A stretch of 64,000 bases of DNA from Cristatella mucedo (Eukaryota > Bryozoa > Phylactolaemata > Cristatellidae), in the NCBI GenBank assembly GCA_009760855.2, contig WPIO01000148.1, positions 62,001-126,000 of the forward strand, written 5' to 3'. Positions 8,686 to 62,398 of this stretch are shown piece by piece. A model generated the notes under the pieces. The model made no database searches and was not told the origin of the DNA. It worked only from the letters and a program-made list of their open reading frames with translations. The first letter of the stretch is position 1. Each line of letters begins with the position of its first letter. Made by a program: the position numbers and the translations under genes.

Positions 8686-9283
8686 ACGTGCGATCGCTGA
8701 CTGCAGACGACGGTGGCTCGTTAACAAACTTGACTAGCTCCCTGGTTCTGTCTAGGTTGGACTATTACAATTCCGTTGTGGCTGGGCTATCAAAAAAGGG
8801 GATTAAGCTTCTGCAGCTGGTGACGAATGAGGCTGCAATACTAGTCGACAAATTCCAGAGGTTTAGCCACGCGGCTCCTTCGTTGAATGAGCTTCCATTA
8901 GGATGCTAAAAGACCATTGGCGACAGAACCCTTTGCTCTGCAGGTTCTAGACTTCGGAACTTCTAGACTTCCACGACTCTTAAGTAAACACTTCGTCGCT
9001 CCTACTGCAGACTATGGCAACTCCTTCTAGCCGTCTTTAGCTGCTACTTATGTGCTACTTACTCACTTTGTCGTCTGCCCTGCTGACTCAGCGATGCTTC
9101 ACACACTATCTCTTTGTTGCGCGACATGACGTTTGTTTGCTACCGCATGTGCACCGTGTCCGCTTATAAGCTTTAAGCGGACTTGAGGAAATACTCCTGC
9201 GTAAGAATACCTCCTTTGGTCCTCGAGGCTTCGTGGAGTGACCGACGAAGACGCATTGCATTGCATTGCATTGCATTGGTCTT
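8686..9283 (+). mobile_element. Diverged L2-B LINE 3' part with ATTGC tail
   Basis: The frame 8688-8909 contains LTSSLVLSRLDYYNS and AGLSKKGIKLLQL, equivalent to the L2-B C-terminal half. Further pieces (GDRTLCSAGSR, LLRDMTFVCYRM type) follow in other frames. The 3' end CGACGAAGACGCATTGCATTG carries five ATTGC units instead of the ATTAC units of other copies. It is strongly diverged and internally deleted, so it is an old or separate subfamily. Confidence 0.8.
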
Positions 9284-14237: not shown

Positions 14238-14313
14238 CCTTGGCTTGCAATATTCTTCAAGCCAGTAGAATACGCATGCGGAGAGCTCAGCAAAGTTGGA
14301 GACGCACACTGTG
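14238..14313 (-). CDS. Small internal exon with strong splice sites, unknown gene
   Basis: The minus strand reads a pyrimidine tract TTTGCTTCTTTCAACAG, then 76 nt, then AGG followed by the perfect donor GTAAGT (14237-14232). After one leading base the exon encodes TVCVSNFAELSACVFYWLEE and then YCKPR without a stop. Acceptor, donor, length and open frame all fit a real internal exon. I do not recognise the family; the W-L-E-E-Y-C string suggests a helical, partly hydrophobic segment. Neighbouring exons are not identified, and an old L2-B copy lies upstream (14600-15050). Confidence 0.52.
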
Positions 14314-14599
14314 CTGTTGAAAGAAGCAAATAGCCTGTCAATAAGTTCTCGGTACTAAAATAAAACGAACAAAGACGTTTTAGAAATGCAAATTGACACT
14401 AGAGACGGCTTGGCTGTCCATTACCTCTACTAAAATAGAAGGTTAGCTGCTATTATAATCCCGATAATCCCATAGCACCGGAAAATGTAGACTCGAGTGT
14501 CGATTTCAATGACGTAAGTCGCAAGTGTATGTTTTCTTATGTACCTGTATTCACGCATATATGCACGTTTGGACGCATCTCCATCTTGGTATTGAGCTG

Positions 14600-16508: not shown

Positions 16509-17340
16509 CTTTGCTCAAAGACACGTGCTCGGCGTACCTGTCGGTTAGATAATTGGACCTGGCTATAAATGAAAGACATATATTACAAAAAATGTAGGAG
16601 ATGCTCCACGTTAAGAGTCTTTATGCTTACTAAAGGAGAATTGATACTTATTACATACTTACAACTATGTGGAAACAATTTTTAAGTCTCTCCTTAATTG
16701 CTATCAACGTTAAAGCAGCAAAAGAAAGTCATCAGACATGTTGACCTTTTCGTGGTTCTAGAATCAAAAATGGCATCGTCACCTCAAGTCAGGTCTCCGC
16801 TGACAAATGCAGAGTCCTGATGGCTACCTGTAATATCTGCACTCACTTCAGGGTGCTGCGTTGCAGCCTGCTTTAGAAACCTCGCCGCCACTATAATTCA
16901 TGCAGGTTGTCTACTACATACCAGTGCCATTTTAGCATCCTCGGGCAATGTTGAGCTGCTGAAAAATGCTGGAGTGCTATGATGATGACTCTTAACCATG
17001 TCCTCATAGTTTCTGCAATATAAAAAACAGTGCTTTAGTTTGTTATTATAAGCACAAGAGTGCTTTATGTGGTACTTTTTAATAAATAACTATTTAAAAG
17101 ATAAGTGCCTCTTAGAGGCTAGTCGCGAGTCGATATAGGCATGTATTTTCAGGGTATTTCTGCAGACGGAGGCGGCCGCCTTTTGGCGATGGAGCTAGAA
17201 TGAAATGATGATAGACGAATGCGCCTTGTAGGCATCGTTTAATTTCGGTGTCGGTTTCCAGAGTAGGCTTTCTTATCATTACAGTAGCATAGGCTATCAT
17301 GCCTAAGTCAGCTGCTATAGTGGGCTATCAGTACGTAAAG
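16509..17340. other. No gene seen
   Basis: Unique AT-rich sequence. The minus frame 17112-17300 has no motif. Confidence 0.4.
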
Positions 17341-19665: not shown

Positions 19666-20078
19666 CAGGTGCGCCTGCACTTACACCTTGGCTTTGCCAG
19701 TCATTATGACATCCATCATTGTTTCAAACACCCTCGTTTCCCGACAATTATGCGCGTGCCCACTGTAGTGCTACCCTGCTATAGAGTCTGGCTGTTCTGT
19801 GAAAATTAAAATCTCACTCCCTGAAGCCCTGATTTAAATTCAATAAACATACACACTGCAACAAAAATCGAGGAATCGAACAAAAAACTTCTCGTACGTC
19901 TTCATGATTCTCAGCGCCAGTACTTCTTTTCGTAGTGACTCCAATTCATCAGACAGTCTCCGTCGATGCTGTACATGGTGCTGTATATAGTCGATGGCTA
20001 CAAAATAGAGAAAAGCAGCCTGGCAGCAGGGAGCGTAGGAGCAGCTTCACCTTTTTTTAGTGCGATACGATGCTTTGG
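19666..20078. other. No gene seen
   Basis: Unique sequence upstream of the duplicated flank at 20079. No coding or repeat signal. Confidence 0.35.
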
Positions 20079-22413: not shown

Positions 22414-22419
22414 CACGTG
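22414..22419. promoter_or_regulatory. Single E-box CACGTG just downstream of the MLX exon
   Basis: GTGCACGTGGGAG. A third canonical E-box within 370 bp of the MLX exon. Single E-boxes are common by chance; listed because of the neighbours. Confidence 0.3.
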
Positions 22420-22460: not shown

Positions 22461-22745
22461 ATCGCTGAAGAATGACAGCTTTGCTTAGTTTGGTCCGACT
22501 CGCCGAGCCTGCGCTGGAGCTAGACGAGTACTCCGGACATGTCGTCTGCTCGTGAGGCTGGGGACGATGCTCTACAGGCTCCGAATGGTGGCAAGTTGGA
22601 ACGATTCGCTGCAGCTCGTCATAGCCTCGCTTTATCGAGTCCCTGCGCTTCTGCTCAGCGATCGTGTGGGCCTCTCTTCGTCTGTCCTTGTTGCTGATAG
22701 CTGAGAGCGAATCGTCGTCAATACAGAGAGCGTCGTCGTCATCGT
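22461..22745 (-). CDS. MLX: MLX (Max-like protein X), bHLH exon
   Basis: A 285-nt exon: acceptor ATCATTGCAG (AG at 22747-22746), donor GTACGT (22460-22455), phase 1 on both sides. It encodes an acidic lead-in (DDDDALCIDDDSLS), then the basic region and helix 1 (RRREAHTIAEQKRRDSIKR, GYDELQRIVPTC), a long loop, and the start of helix 2 (KLSKAVILQR). The H, E and R that read the E-box (RRxxHTxAEQKRR) are present. These strings fit animal MLX better than ChREBP/MondoA or Max. MLX pairs with MondoA/ChREBP or MXD proteins in the nucleus and binds CACGTG sites to drive glucose-responsive transcription. The loop is about 23 residues longer than in human MLX, Ser-rich and His/Pro-rich. The rest of the leucine zipper and the C-terminal region must lie in later exons to the left, not identified; upstream exons lie to the right. 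Confidence 0.9.
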
Positions 22746-22763
22746 CTGCAATGATTATCACAT

Positions 22764-22780
22764 CACGTGGCAGTCACGTG
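22764..22780. promoter_or_regulatory. Perfect double E-box CACGTG-N5-CACGTG (ChoRE-like)
   Basis: CACGTG at 22764-22769 and 22775-22780 are separated by GCAGT, exactly five bases. This is the architecture of the carbohydrate response element bound by Mondo/ChREBP-MLX heterotetramers. It lies 17 bp upstream of the MLX bHLH exon acceptor. Seen directly: the sequence. Established: the element's architecture. Inferred: autoregulation. Confidence 0.75.
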
Positions 22781-22878
22781 GAGGAGCCGAAGCTCCGGAC
22801 GCCTACAGCAGCCCCACTTCCCAAATTGTGATAGAATTTTGGAGTACCAACCACGAGACGTCTATATTTGCTCTTCAG

Positions 22879-23025
22879 CTCTCGCTGCATGCTCTGCAAG
22901 AGCAAACTACATCTCACGGAGCCCATCTACTGGCCGTGATTCAAGCAAGATGTCAGCTGTTGGAAATCATTCAGCGACCTCTAAATTCATATAGGCCACT
23001 GGCTGTTGGCAGTGCTCGATCCTAG
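22879..23025 (+). CDS. Possible exon on the strand opposite MLX
   Basis: After a good acceptor (ATATTTGCTCTTCAG, AG at 22877-22878) the frame reads LSLHALQEQTTSHGAHLLAV and IQARCQLLEIIQRPLN and ends at TAG 23023-23025. The segment is predicted as amphipathic helix with regular leucines and has good codon use. No donor is obvious, so it could be a last exon. No family is recognised. It overlaps the span where MLX upstream exons should lie, on the opposite strand. Confidence 0.33.
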   Translation, partial: LSLHALQEQTTSHGAHLLAVIQARCQLLEIIQRPLNSYRPLAVGSARS

Positions 23026-23770
23026 TCACAAACTTCCTGAACACCTTAAAAAGCTCATTCTGTAGAGTGGTACTGCTTTCGTGCTAGCGCAAGCATAGGT
23101 CTATTCAGCATTATTATGTATATACGTGTACGCCTAAGCACGAAAAAGTCTCTACATGCATCTATATATGCATATATTGATTTATATATTGAGTGAGATA
23201 CAGAGGTAGGTATGTATAAATAATTGATTTACGTCTTGACCTTTAACTTTTCACAAGTTTCACTTTCTAAAGCTTAGCACAGTTCCTACAACTACGGCCA
23301 GAAGGGTGGTAATTGCATGCCTAAACTTACGGCCGAACGACCATCTACTTTCACCAAACCAAAAACGCAAAGTATGGTCTCTACAGGTCATGATAGGGCC
23401 ACAACAAACTACCTAGTGAATTGGAGAAGCCATGCATGTAACAACATGAATAACAAATGTATTTAGCGCCACAAGAGAATAAAACCTCTTTCCAGAGATT
23501 TTTTAAATGGTGGAAACTAGTCACGAAACGTCCTGTACTATCCTTGAATCCATGGCGATTAGGATTATTTTGACTTACTTTCAAACAACCGGACGTCATC
23601 TGTTCGATGGTGCTTCTTTTATCGATTAGGCTACATGGAGCTTTTCACTAATCGCTCCTTCTGACACCCAAGAGGAAACAATCAAGCAGTAAACGTCATT
23701 CTGCCTAGTGCCTGCAAGCTGCAGCTATGTGGCGTTGGGCCTAAAAGCTCCTGCGGCTGCTGAATCTCAG
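23026..23770. other. No gene seen
   Basis: AT-rich unique DNA with TATATG words at 23110-23220; the minus frame 23381-23599 shows no motif. Confidence 0.4.
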
Positions 23771-30608: not shown

Positions 30609-30699
30609 TCGCTTCGGGCTGCTTGGTCTCCCACGCCAGCGGCTGCCTTAGCTACGCCTGCCTTAGCTACGCCGGCGGCTAGTAACCTGCTTGTTAGTA

Positions 30700-31872
30700 A
30701 TGATCGTCAAGCTGTTATCGCTTCGTCATCGCATATCAAATGCATTCCTAGATATTAATGTTGTTGCTAAGATTCATGAACTATGCATTAACAAAAGAAA
30801 AGCACCCAGTAGCCGCCGCGGTGGCCGGAACCGCCAGCTCAGACGCCGCTCGTTGGGCAGAACCTGCAAGCTGAGTACCAGCTCGTTCGGTATTCCTAGC
30901 ATTGTCTCGAACCGCTCAGCACGCTCCCCCACATGCGTCACTGTAAATTCCTCAAACTTAGTGGTCATGAAGCCTGTTGTAACCCCATCGGCCAGACTTA
31001 ACGCTTGCCTTTGGAATCCTCGCTCGATGTGCAATAAACCTTTAGTAATAAGCGACCTTATTTCTGAAAATGGTATCGACCTGCTCGCCCTAACTGAAAC
31101 TTGGCTGAAATCGATAAACTGTCCGACAATTAAAGACACAACTCCATCTGGTTTCTCGTACTTTCACACCCCTAGATCAATCAAAACTGGAGGTGGAGTT
31201 GCTATTGTCGTGCGCTTGAAATTCAACTTCAAGCCATTTGCGGTACCCTCGAAGCAGTCTTTTGAATCAATTGTCTTGGTCTCACCCGAAAACAAGCTAC
31301 CGATAGTGGCAGTAGTCTATCGCCCACCAGGTACCAAATCCTCCTTTATCTCAGATTTCTCCGATCTCATTTCGATTCTGTGTGCAAGAAATCGATCCTT
31401 CCTCGTAATGGGTGATTTCAACGTTCACTTTGATAACTTATCTGACGCTTTCAGCACCGAATTTCGTGCATTGACTGACTCATTGTCTTTTGTGGCTCAT
31501 GTGCATGGCCCTACCCACATCAAGGGTCACACACTCGACCAGATTTTCTCATATAACTGCACTTTGTCATCACCAATTATTACCAAATCATGCTTATCTG
31601 ACCACATGCAGATCTCGTTCAATCTACAGTGTGTGCTCACATCCTCCTCTAAAATAACCTGTGAATCGCGAAACCTCAAGACCCTTGACATCGATGCTGT
31701 CCGTGCGAGAATATCTGCTTCGACTCTGCTGCTCAGTCCTCCCTCCGAGCTGTCATCATTGGTAGATAGCTACAACAAGACACTAGCTGACACGCTCGAC
31801 GAGTTTGCACCTCTGAACAAAGCGCACTGTGCGCCCCCGCCCAGACGGCCTATGGTTTACCACAGACATTAA
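30700..31872 (+). pseudogene. L2-B ORF, endonuclease domain
   Basis: Starts at ATG 30700 (an upstream in-frame TTG is not needed). Residues up to about 100 are basic (KRKAPSSRRGGRNRQLRRR), possibly nucleic-acid binding. From about residue 105 an AP-endonuclease fold follows with all its signatures: LWNPRSM (Asn), LTETWL (metal-binding Glu), VVYRPP, MGDFNVH (Asp/Asn) and SDH near the end. The domain would nick target DNA to prime reverse transcription. The frame is closed at 31870 by a shift; the reading continues in another frame from 31829 (ARSTKRKLEKAYKRSG). Catalytically complete in sequence but no longer linked to an RT. Confidence 0.88.
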
Positions 31873-32012
31873 ACTAGCCAGGTCTACTAAACGAAAGCTT
31901 GAAAAAGCATACAAAAGATCCGGACTAACTGTCCATCGACAGGCTTATGAAGACTACTGTAAGTCGTATCATTCGATCCTAGCAAAGGCCAAGTCTAGCT
32001 TCTCTAGAAACA

Positions 32013-32618
32013 TTGTTGAATCAGCACTCTACCGAAACTGCTCTCCTCCGTGTTAACAATGACATTCTACGTGGCAACGACGACGGGAATGTCACTGCCC
32101 TAGCTCTGCTAGATCTGTCTGCTGCCTTCGACACCATTGATCACGAAGTTCTGCTTGAACGACTGAGAACAACGATCGGTCTGGCAGACGAAGCACTGGC
32201 GTGGTTTAAATCATACTTGTCTGATCGTGTTCAATCCGTGTCGTGTGGGGGTCAGATCTCAGACATGAGAAGGGTCACCTGTGGAGTCCCCCAAGGGTCT
32301 GTACTTGGTCCCTTGCTGTTCTCCATTTATACGCAACCTCTGGGAAAAGTGATAAAGGCCCATGGAATAGGATATCACTTCTATGCTGACGATACTCAGT
32401 TGTATTTGTCATTTAAACCGTCGGAATCTGCTGCAGCAACTGAGAAACTGAATGCTTGCCTTGCCGACATTCGATCCTGGATGTCGGAAAACTTCCTGAA
32501 GTTAAATGATGATAAAACCGAACTGCTTCTCGTAGGACACCCTAAGCGTGTGGCTGGATTAAAAGGCTTTGCTGTTCTAATGATATTGCACTTGATAAAG
32601 CGCCCTCAGAGAACTTAA
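32013..32618 (+). pseudogene. L2-B RT segment, N-terminally deleted
   Basis: The frame begins at [15 protein letters not shown], joined directly to the post-endonuclease segment SFSRNIVE. The roughly 200 codons between (linker and RT motifs 0-2; compare 3040-3520 of the other copy) are missing. Motif A ([11 protein letters not shown]), motif B ([13 protein letters not shown]) and motif C ([10 protein letters not shown]) are intact. It ends where the minus-strand L2-A fragment starts. Confidence 0.9.
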
Positions 32619-32724
32619 TCTCTTTCTAGGCGCTTTACATTTGCTGTAAAGTGATATGCAATAGAATAGTAAGTAAAATCATGCTTGAAAAACAAACAAA
32701 ATGAATAATATGGTTAGGGGTTAC
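32582..32724 (-). mobile_element. L2-A 3' fragment nested in L2-B
   Basis: About 143 bp: ATTGCACTTGATAAAGCGCC, the reversed hairpin and 3' UTR to GGTTAGGGG. The L2-B sequence is CTAAT before and CGATGCTATTG after; compared with other copies AGG was lost and no duplication is visible. The ATT tail is nearly absent. Confidence 0.92.
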
Positions 32725-33571
32725 GATGCTATTGTGCGACCTTCACCACGTGCTCGTAATCTAGGTGTCGTGTTCGACAGCTGCCTCAATTTCAAAAGCT
32801 TCACTCAGAAGACTGCCTCTACAGCTAGCCATCACAACCGATCCAAATCCAAGATTAGAAGCTGTCTCCCACAGTGGCTTGTAAAAAATTTAACTAGCTC
32901 TTTAGTTCTGTCTCGGCTTGATTATTGTAATTCCCTTTTGGCTGGGCTACCAAAGAAAGCTATTATGCCACTACAGCGGACTATGAATATGGCTGCAAGG
33001 CTGGTCTTCAAGTCCCAGCGGTTTGAGCACGTGTCACCTTTGCTGGAAGAGCTAGGATGGCTGCCGGTTGAGCAAAGGATACGGAGCAAAGTTCTTACGC
33101 TGACCCACAAGGCCCGCCACGGCTTGGCTCCTTCATACCTAGCTGAACTGCTACATCAGTTTCAGCCTGTTCGCGCCCTCAGGTCCTGTGTGGACAATAA
33201 ATTAGCTGTCCCATTCCTCCGCTTAAAGACAGTTGGCGACAGAAGCTTTAGCTCTGCAGGTCCTAGACTGTGGAACTCGCTTCCACAATTCTTACGCTAC
33301 GACATCTACTCTCCTACTGCCGACTATGGCACATCTTTTTCAGCGGTCCTGAACTGCTACTTCTATGCTACTCACTACCTCAACTGCTCTCCTGACTCTG
33401 CTATGCTTCTCACTTTCTCTTTGTTGCGTGAGACGAAGTCTGTTGGCTCCCGAATGCGTACCGAAAGCCGCTTAGGTTGTGAGTGCGCTATACAAAACTC
33501 TCCTGCGCAACGCCCACATGGTCTTCATGACTTTGTGGAATTACTGACGGAGATACATTACATTACATTAC

Positions 33572-35379
33572 AGATGCACAATCCAAAAATGCTGACGTCG
33601 ACAATAAACCATCTCCTCAACCGTTCCCAGATTAGCTCCTTACCTGATGATCCCTGTTATGATCTAGCCGATCGCTTCTCTCGATTCTTTGTGCAGAAGA
33701 TAGACATGATCAGGAAATCCATCCCTGCGATGACAACCCTCCCCCCACTAGAATGCTGTTCCTCGGTTCCTGGCTGCGCCTCAATGTCTGCATTTAATCA
33801 GGTTACTAGTGATATAGTCCTAAAGTTCGTATCGCAATCAAAGAAGACAACAAGTCCTCTGGACCCTATTCCCACTGTCCTGCTCCTACGTTGCACTGAT
33901 CTGCTGCTGCCATGCATAACTAACATCATTAATATGTCATTCGCCTCAGGTCATGTCCCAGCACCTTTCAAAAAAGCTGTAGTCAGGCCTCTCCTCAAGA
34001 AAGCAACACTAGACCAAGAGAACTTGAGCAACTACCGCCCAGTCTCCCTTCTACCATTTCGATCAAAGAAACTGGAACGGGTCGTAGCAGACGAGCGAAA
34101 CTCATATATCGAAACCTCACACCTTGCAAGTAAGTTCCAGTCCGGCTTTAGAGCTAATTACTCCACAGAGTCAGCATTGCTTCGGGTGTACAACGACCTA
34201 CTTAGGAATGCAGACATGGGTAGAGTGTCTCTGCTTGTTTTGCTCGATCTTTCGGCAGCTTTTGACGCCATCGATCACAAAGTTCTTCTAGAGCGCCTCT
34301 CATCTCGCCTGGGCATCACTGGCACTGCTCTGCAGTGGTTCAGGTCCTATCTCAGTGGGAGACTCGCGAGTATTGACGTGAATAGACAAAGATCATCTGA
34401 AGTACCTCTGAAATATGGAGTACCTCAGGGCTCCGTGCTAGGTCCGGTTCTTTTCACGGTTTATACTCTCCCTCTTGCTGATGTGATTGGTAAGCACAAT
34501 CTAGGCTTTCACTTCTATGCGGATGACACTCAGTTGTACCTTTGCTTTGATCCCTCCCAGCCTTCGACCACCTCAAATTCTCTCAACTCACTTACTGCAT
34601 GCATTGGTGACATCCGCACATGGATGGCAGCAAATTTTCTAAAACTAAACGATGACAAAACTAACTTACTAGTTATGGGCAAACCCAGTGTGATCCAGAG
34701 ATTGGAAAGGCTGACGCTCAAAATTGGCTCTGCCAGCATATCTCCTGTCGAATCAGCTCGAAATCTAGGTGTCATATTCCAAAGCGACCTCTCGTTAGAC
34801 GACCATATCAGCTCCACGGTCAAATATGCCTATTTGGAGCTTCACAATATTGCTAAAATTCGGGCTTGTTTAGATAAGGATACCACATCTAAGTTGGTCC
34901 ATGCATTGGTGACATCTCGTCTCGACTTCTGCAACTCACTGCTTACTGGCCTATCAGCATGTGCGATCAGGCGATTGCAGCTGGTGCAAAACTCCGCAGC
35001 TAGGCTTGTCTGTCGTGAGCGTCGCAGTTGCCACGTTACTCCACTTCTCACCGACCTGCACTGGCTACCAGTCAAGCAACGGATTGACTTCAAAGTTTTG
35101 TCGCTCACTTTTTTGTCCCTTCACTCTATGGCTCCAGCCTATCTCTCCGACATACTCTTCCATCAGGCCAAGCATCGTACCACCTGCTTTTCAGAATCCA
35201 ACAGTCCACAAATGCCTTGTACAAACCTCAAATCCTTTCGAGACCGTGCATTTAGTTCGTATGCTCCTAAAGCCTGGAACTCCCTCCCGACCTGCGTCAG
35301 AACATCCCCTGACCTGACCACATTTAAAAGGAACTTAAAAACACACCTATTTGGGACAGCATTTAGTGGGTCCCTGTGA
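33572..35379 (+). pseudogene. L2-A reverse transcriptase ORF (5'-truncated but open)
   Basis: Roughly 600 codons of L2-A protein without a stop: the pre-RT linker (ADRFSRFFVQKIDMIRKS), the palm motifs listed for the element, and the C-terminal region of unknown role (RLDFCNSLLTGLSACAIRR, LHWLPVKQRIDFK). A frame change near the 5' junction separates DAQSKN from PKMLTST. It has no start codon of its own. It serves as the reference for all L2-A calls here. Compared with the 17341 and 46043 copies it differs by scattered substitutions. Confidence 0.88.
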
Positions 35380-38056: not shown

Positions 38057-38425
38057 ATGAATGCACACGTGGGCGCACGTGGGCGAAAGGACGCCTCCTG
38101 CGAGGCGCCTCACTTGCCCACGCTGCGTTGGCTTAAGCGGCTCCTGCAGGCTGAAGCCTGCTCATATTTAACCACAGGAGTCGACGACCGCCTTGAACTC
38201 CTCCGGATAGCTAGCTGTGAGCAGTACAGTGGAGCCAATTACGTCGGCAACCGTTCACTCAGCCTGTCCGCCGGTCAGCACGGGCGCTATCTCGCTCTCT
38301 TTGTTCTCACACGGCAAAGCTGTCGACTTGACCACGAGCTTGCACACATCCTCCAAAGTGCAACCAGGCTGCGATTTCAAAATCTAGAACATTCGAAGCC
38401 CGTCTGCCGCGGGAATGAGCGCTGA
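38057..38425 (+). CDS. 122-codon ORF, unknown; opposite strand also coding-like
   Basis: ATG at 38057 opens a frame to TGA at 38423, rich in Arg, Leu and Cys (QHGRYLALFVLTRQSCRLDH). Two E-boxes lie just inside it (38066-38071 and 38076-38081, spaced by four bases). The minus strand reads LKSQPGCTLEDVCKLVVKS and TALPCENKESEIAPVLTGGQ up to a TGA, then VADVIGSTVLLTASYPEEF; this also looks coding, after an acceptor-like TTTTTCAG at about 38424. Only one strand can be real. No family is recognised in either. Confidence 0.25.
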   Translation: MNAHVGARGRKDASCEAPHLPTLRWLKRLLQAEACSYLTTGVDDRLELLRIASCEQYSGANYVGNRSLSLSAGQHGRYLALFVLTRQSCRLDHELAHILQSATRLRFQNLEHSKPVCRGNER

Positions 38426-52485: not shown

Positions 52486-52526
52486 TAGAACGAGCCTTCG
52501 TACGAGCAGCCGACCGATCCGACGCA

Positions 52527-52822
52527 TCCTCTGATCGCATCCTCTGATCGTATCCTCTGCTCGCATCCTCCGATCGCATCCTCCGATCGCATCCTCCGAT
52601 CGCATCCTCCGATCGCATCCTCCGATCGCATCCTCCGATCGCATCCTCCGATCGCATCCTCCGATCGCATCCTCCGATCGCATCCTCCAATCGCATCCTC
52701 TGATCGCATCCTCCGATCGCATCCTCCGATCGCATCCTCCGATCGCATCCTCCGATCGCATCCTCTGATCGCATCCTCCGATCGCATCCTCCGATCGCAT
52801 CCTCTGATCGCATCCTCTGATA
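52527..52822. repeat. 13-bp minisatellite, about 22 units
   Basis: Unit GCATCCTCCGATC, with CTCTGATC variants mostly at the ends and one CCAATC. Because 13 is not a multiple of three and no unit makes a stop, all three minus frames are open and encode the same circular 13-residue peptide (RRMRSEDAIGGCD). Confidence 0.97.
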
Positions 52823-53281
52823 CGAGACTTTTTTTAAACAAGCTAAACACCCGCAGCTGCTGCTGCTGCTCACAGCTTTAGCTCCCTCCGTCCGCGTCAG
52901 TTGCCCCTTCGCTTTCCGTTCGTGCTGAAATTTCACACATCGCGCCTCAACAATTGACTTCAGCTTCCTTTTCGGTATCTTTTTACTAATTGGCTATAGC
53001 AACATCTGAACTAAAGCCTTTAGGCACCTTGCACTGAGCACATTATGGGTGCTAGTCCTTACAGACTAAATAATACTGGAGGAGCTGGCGCCGCAAAGCA
53101 CGGCAACAAGGCGTACATTCAGCCACGCTGAATTGTGGCATGCCGAAGGTAGCGGTGCTGTGCAGCAAAACGAGCCCCCGCAGCTCAATTCAAAGATACT
53201 TCACGTCTTTTTGTAAAGCTTTTGATTCAGCAGCCGCGGGGATCTACATTTCCACAGCACCAGCCTTAGCGTACAACTCAC
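52823..53281. other. No gene seen
   Basis: A short CTGCTG run at 52855-52870 and otherwise unique DNA. The 5' part of the plus frame 53140-53442 lies here. Confidence 0.3.

Positions 53282-61553: not shown

Positions 61554-62398
<845 letters not shown>

Follow-up and report, generated by a model that had tools for sequence, protein, structure and literature searches.

A ChoRE-grade paired E-box beside the predicted bHLH exon of an MLX-like gene in Cristatella mucedo, probably a product of micro-duplication

The window analyzed here (the whole stretch of 64,000 nucleotides, positions 62,001 to 126,000 of contig WPIO01000148.1 of the bryozoan Cristatella mucedo) was found to contain an MLX-like gene on the minus strand. 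The gene model was built by tblastn against the window, using a human MLX sequence as bait. The exon at 22461–22745 encodes an acidic stretch, the basic region, helix 1, a long loop and the start of helix 2. It showed a Pfam HLH match (E 7.6e-12) and similarity to the human MLX bait (E 1.8e-13), in agreement with the original prediction that the exon next to the element studied here encodes the bHLH domain of MLX. On the same strand, an exon at 19898–19997 encodes the end of helix 2 and the leucine zipper (E 4e-4 with the bait), an exon at 16922–17012 encodes an NYEDMVKSHH segment, which is a weak match when taken alone (E 8.4), and an exon at 14238–14354 encodes the C-terminal domain YRELIDRLFASFN...CKPR (E 5e-12 with the bait); the ORF containing this C-terminal exon showed no Pfam match. 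The four exons lie in order on one strand and give one open frame when joined at GT-AG sites. Judged against the human bait, bHLH, zipper and C-terminal domain are thus arranged as in an MLX gene, with GT-AG introns between them. The N-terminal and last MLX exons were not found, either by tblastn with the bait or by a minus-strand pattern search of the window. The one pattern hit, at 52882, falls within a minisatellite-bearing ORF and was discarded as off target. The bHLH exon matched two solved structures, both BMAL1 chains (best E 0.0011). This result and the missing Pfam match of the C-terminal ORF speak against the name MLX, which is based on the bait together with the exon order. A search for relatives of this exon in viral and prokaryotic contig collections gave no match.

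The loop between helices 1 and 2 of the MLX-like bHLH is rich in Ser and 23 residues longer than that of the human bait; as far as is known, such a loop is unusual for the family. Elsewhere in the window, an ORF at 1220–1582 on the minus strand resembles the oligoribonuclease REXO2; its Pfam match (E 7.9e-8) is to the beginning of an RNase_T exonuclease domain. ORFs of non-LTR retrotransposon type occupy 30667–35379, with an endonuclease at 30667–31872 and a reverse transcriptase at 32689–35379 (Pfam), and similar ORFs recur in the window. A minisatellite with a 13-base unit (23.5 copies, 95% matches) is located at 52518–52821 and is open in several frames.

A scan of the window sequence placed CACGTGGCAGTCACGTG, i.e., two CACGTG words separated by GCAGT, as an exact match at 22764–22780 when read on the plus strand (the feature itself was assigned no strand). 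A third E-box, likewise unstranded, was located at 22414–22419 in the intron following the bHLH exon; both positions had been predicted correctly. With its two E-box-like hexamers exactly five bases apart, the paired element has the make-up of a ChoRE and fits the consensus CAYGNG-N5-CNCRTG, as quoted in PMC3141076. It was the only match to this consensus in the 64-kb window and also the sole zero-mismatch pair of CACGTG words with a five-base gap. Dinucleotide shuffles gave a mean of 0.16 consensus matches, with at least one match in 13 of 100 shuffles. The refined ChIP-seq motif ChBM1 (CABGTG-nnCnG-nGnSTG) had no match in the window, the paired E-box departing from it in the second box and in the spacer. 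According to PMC3141076, ChBM1 is present in 78.9% of ChREBP peaks in HepG2 cells and is thus not strictly required. Dimers of USF, Mondo-MLX and other bHLH-ZIP factors would probably bind the paired E-box in vitro. CACGTG is a common site of the USF, MAX-network and MITF/TFE families, which is in line with a reading of the pair as an ordinary intronic enhancer of such factors, in which the link to MLX would not be special. The similar occupancy of MLX, MAX and MNT in E-box-enriched regions of 3T3 cells points in the same direction (PMC8528285), yet we consider this explanation quite unlikely.

The paired E-box lies in a predicted intron, at −19 to −35 from the acceptor of the bHLH exon. The predicted 3′ splice site TTGCAG is located at 22746–22751 on the minus strand and its AG ends at 22746, so that 18 bases (22746–22763) separate the element from the exon, one more than the 17 bp given originally. 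Pyrimidines make up 9 of the 18 bases at −3 to −20 of this acceptor, the fewest of the four, compared to 15, 13, and 15 of 18 for the other three predicted acceptors. An acceptor-like CTCTCAG was seen 45 bases inside the exon (22701–22745); it is in frame and preceded by 11 of 18 pyrimidines, and its use would remove the acidic stretch DDDDALCIDDD. A splicing role of the paired E-box is possible, judging only by its position in the usual branch-point zone. More specifically, the two copies of CCACGTGA read on the minus strand may supply GUGAY branch-point-like words to the weak predicted acceptor, in which case the element, if it is kept at all, would be kept because of splicing rather than DNA binding. 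The position of the element at −19 to −35, the low pyrimidine count of the acceptor and the second acceptor-like CAG are consistent with this explanation. However, the usual branch-point consensus is yUnAy, from which GUGAY departs at the first base, and the acceptor is itself a prediction; we regard this explanation as very unlikely.

An internal promoter at the element had also been proposed. An in-frame TGA is located upstream of the bHLH exon at 22774–22776 on the minus strand; two of its bases are the final two of an E-box, and one further base completes it. From this TGA (22776–22774) to the end of the bHLH there is no Met, and the first Met of the joined frame is that of LRIMK in the next exon. 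A transcript begun at the element would therefore encode no AUG-started DNA-binding MLX, and an internal start yielding an AUG-started bHLH protein was ruled out. Thus, the element has no downstream in-frame AUG that would give a DNA-binding isoform in the manner of ChREBP-beta. The internal-promoter idea could still hold for a hypothetical alternative first exon located farther upstream.

CACGTG was present 28 times in the window, i.e., 2.3 times more often than in dinucleotide shuffles (mean 11.94, largest 22; none of 100 shuffles reached 28), rather than the 15 or so of the original prediction. Nineteen of the 28 E-boxes, including the pair and the one at 22414, are found outside all sequence of at least 80 bases that recurs within the window. 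As only the other nine are inside such recurring sequence, which covers 39% of the window, repeats alone were ruled out as the cause of the excess. For the pair itself, 28 words were placed uniformly at random in 100,000 trials and neighboring pairs were measured start to start. A neighboring pair exactly 11 bases apart occurred in 1.2% of these placements, under a uniform model that ignores short local repeats, which in this window exceed simulation. The chance figure of 0.004 given earlier was thus about three times too small, since 28 words lead to approximately 0.012 even before local duplication is considered. Any neighboring pair 6–20 bases apart was obtained in 16% of the placements, and three CACGTG words within 361 bases in 24%. 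The third E-box therefore adds little, and its use as extra support was abandoned.

The paired E-box is part of an imperfect 11-bp tandem repeat, TCACGTGGCAG TCACGTGGAGG, at 22763–22784 (plus strand), whose two units are identical at 9 of 11 positions and together hold both E-boxes. Eight contiguous bases are identical at offset 11, so that the identity extends past the E-box. Including this one, the window contained eight period-11 loci in which the identity spanned at least 8 bases, compared to a mean of 1.0 and a maximum of 5 in 30 simulations, and 37 loci in which it spanned at least 6, compared to a mean of 11.3 and a maximum of 23. Arrays called by Tandem Repeats Finder were masked for these counts, except for three long-period arrays. 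Among offsets 6–30, offset 11 was the richest in loci, and offsets 8 (30 loci), 9 (25), and 12 (27) were also high. At least 6 of the 37 loci share the word TGCTACT or its reverse complement, as does one of the eight longer loci, at 9042, and other words recur as well; the number of independent events is therefore lower than the raw count, and the excess smaller. The repeat at 22763–22784 was not called by Tandem Repeats Finder or by a second repeat search at the thresholds used. At 38066–38081, CACGTGGGCGCACGTG likewise contains two E-boxes close together, here separated by four bases. It is the only other CACGTG pair within 6–20 bases in the window and is contained in an exact 10-bp tandem copy of CACGTGGGCG.

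We conclude that the paired E-box is probably an intronic micro-duplication, in which case its location in the MLX gene would be a coincidence. A short segment with one CACGTG would have been copied in tandem at an 11-base period, and from this period the five-base spacing would follow automatically. Since the window is rich in both CACGTG and short-range repeats, no selection would be needed for the pair. Local duplication in E-box-rich DNA would likewise make both close pairs explicable without the spacing preference of Mondo-MLX. As an undoubled copy was not seen, we infer the duplication, and the pair would then have no function of its own; the choice among the readings was made on parsimony. 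A 21-base stretch containing the element had no copy in the viral contig collection. Several observations speak against micro-duplication, among them the words shared by period-11 loci, the three unmasked arrays, the lack of a call by either repeat search at its thresholds and the lack of an undoubled copy. In addition, a perfect five-base spacing next to the MLX exon is still unlikely by uniform chance, the value of 0.012 referring to a pair anywhere in the window. Of six blocks of 500 bases, the one containing the element also has both the highest GC content (0.536) and the highest CpG ratio (1.0, compared to 0.82 for the whole window), although this block takes in most of the bHLH exon.

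The main competing explanation is a functional intronic ChoRE, in which Mondo-MLX would bind the pair and tune MLX from the upstream promoter, as an autoregulatory enhancer similar to that of ChREBP. The fit of the pair to CAYGNG-N5-CNCRTG is consistent with this. Work by Shih from 1995 is also in its favor, in which two properly spaced CACGTG words reportedly dictate carbohydrate regulation in mammals. Intronic binding would not be unusual, as about 26% of the ChREBP peaks in HepG2 cells are intronic (PMC3141076). Besides, regulation of ChREBP-beta via a ChoRE on its own exon 1b (PMC4725739) and feedback of MNT on its own promoter via E-boxes (PMC8870482) have been described. The mismatch to ChBM1 argues against a functional ChoRE, as does the lack of a CCAAT word within 22461–23200; GGGCGG (GC-box) and TATAAA were likewise absent from both strands of this region, the one exception being a TATAAA in reverse orientation at 23181. 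A CCAAT partner is said to take part in TXNIP control, according to work by Yu and Luo from 2009. Control of MLX over its own gene is not reported in the literature listings examined, drawn from open-licence papers, or in passages of PMC4725739, PMC8528285, PMC3141076, PMC8530363, PMC3974684, PMC7515633, and PMC8870482. On balance, we consider a functional intronic ChoRE unlikely. In a still more elaborate version, Mondo-MLX would occupy the intronic ChoRE at high sugar and so set the dose of MLX; through overlap of the site with the branch-point zone it would also affect whether the bHLH exon is included or its internal in-frame acceptor (45 bases in) is chosen, and would couple sugar sensing to isoform choice. 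This version is extremely improbable. The original prediction was supported in part: it was right about the gene, with its bHLH exon of MLX type, and about an architecture like that of a ChoRE, and 22764–22780 is a genuine ChoRE-grade sequence, but it carries no evidence of autoregulation by MLX. If the element were functional, the obligate partner of a sugar sensor would feed back on its own gene, as is known for ChREBP-beta. As it stands, the micro-duplication favored here calls for caution, since a perfect motif with perfect spacing can arise in this way in E-box-rich DNA.

Compared to known systems, the pair resembles the ChoRE of ChREBP/MondoA-MLX targets in having two E-boxes five bases apart, the consensus being that given in PMC3141076. 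It differs from these in being located between coding exons, in an intron according to the gene model. ChBM1 combines a perfect with an imperfect box, whereas the window pair consists of two perfect palindromes and its spacer does not fit nnCnG (PMC3141076). Unlike the window pair, the boxes of MNT lie at most 800 bp from the start site and were tested. Exon 1b of MLXIPL is an alternative first exon of an active ChREBP variant. The window pair is similar to the ChREBP-beta case in that a ChoRE is located inside a gene encoding part of the Mondo-MLX complex (PMC4725739), and different in that the window exon has no in-frame Met before the bHLH. For ChREBP, a minor effect was seen when the ChoRE on exon 1b was deleted; the E-box at −98 to −93, which belongs to a second putative ChoRE, mattered more (PMC4725739).
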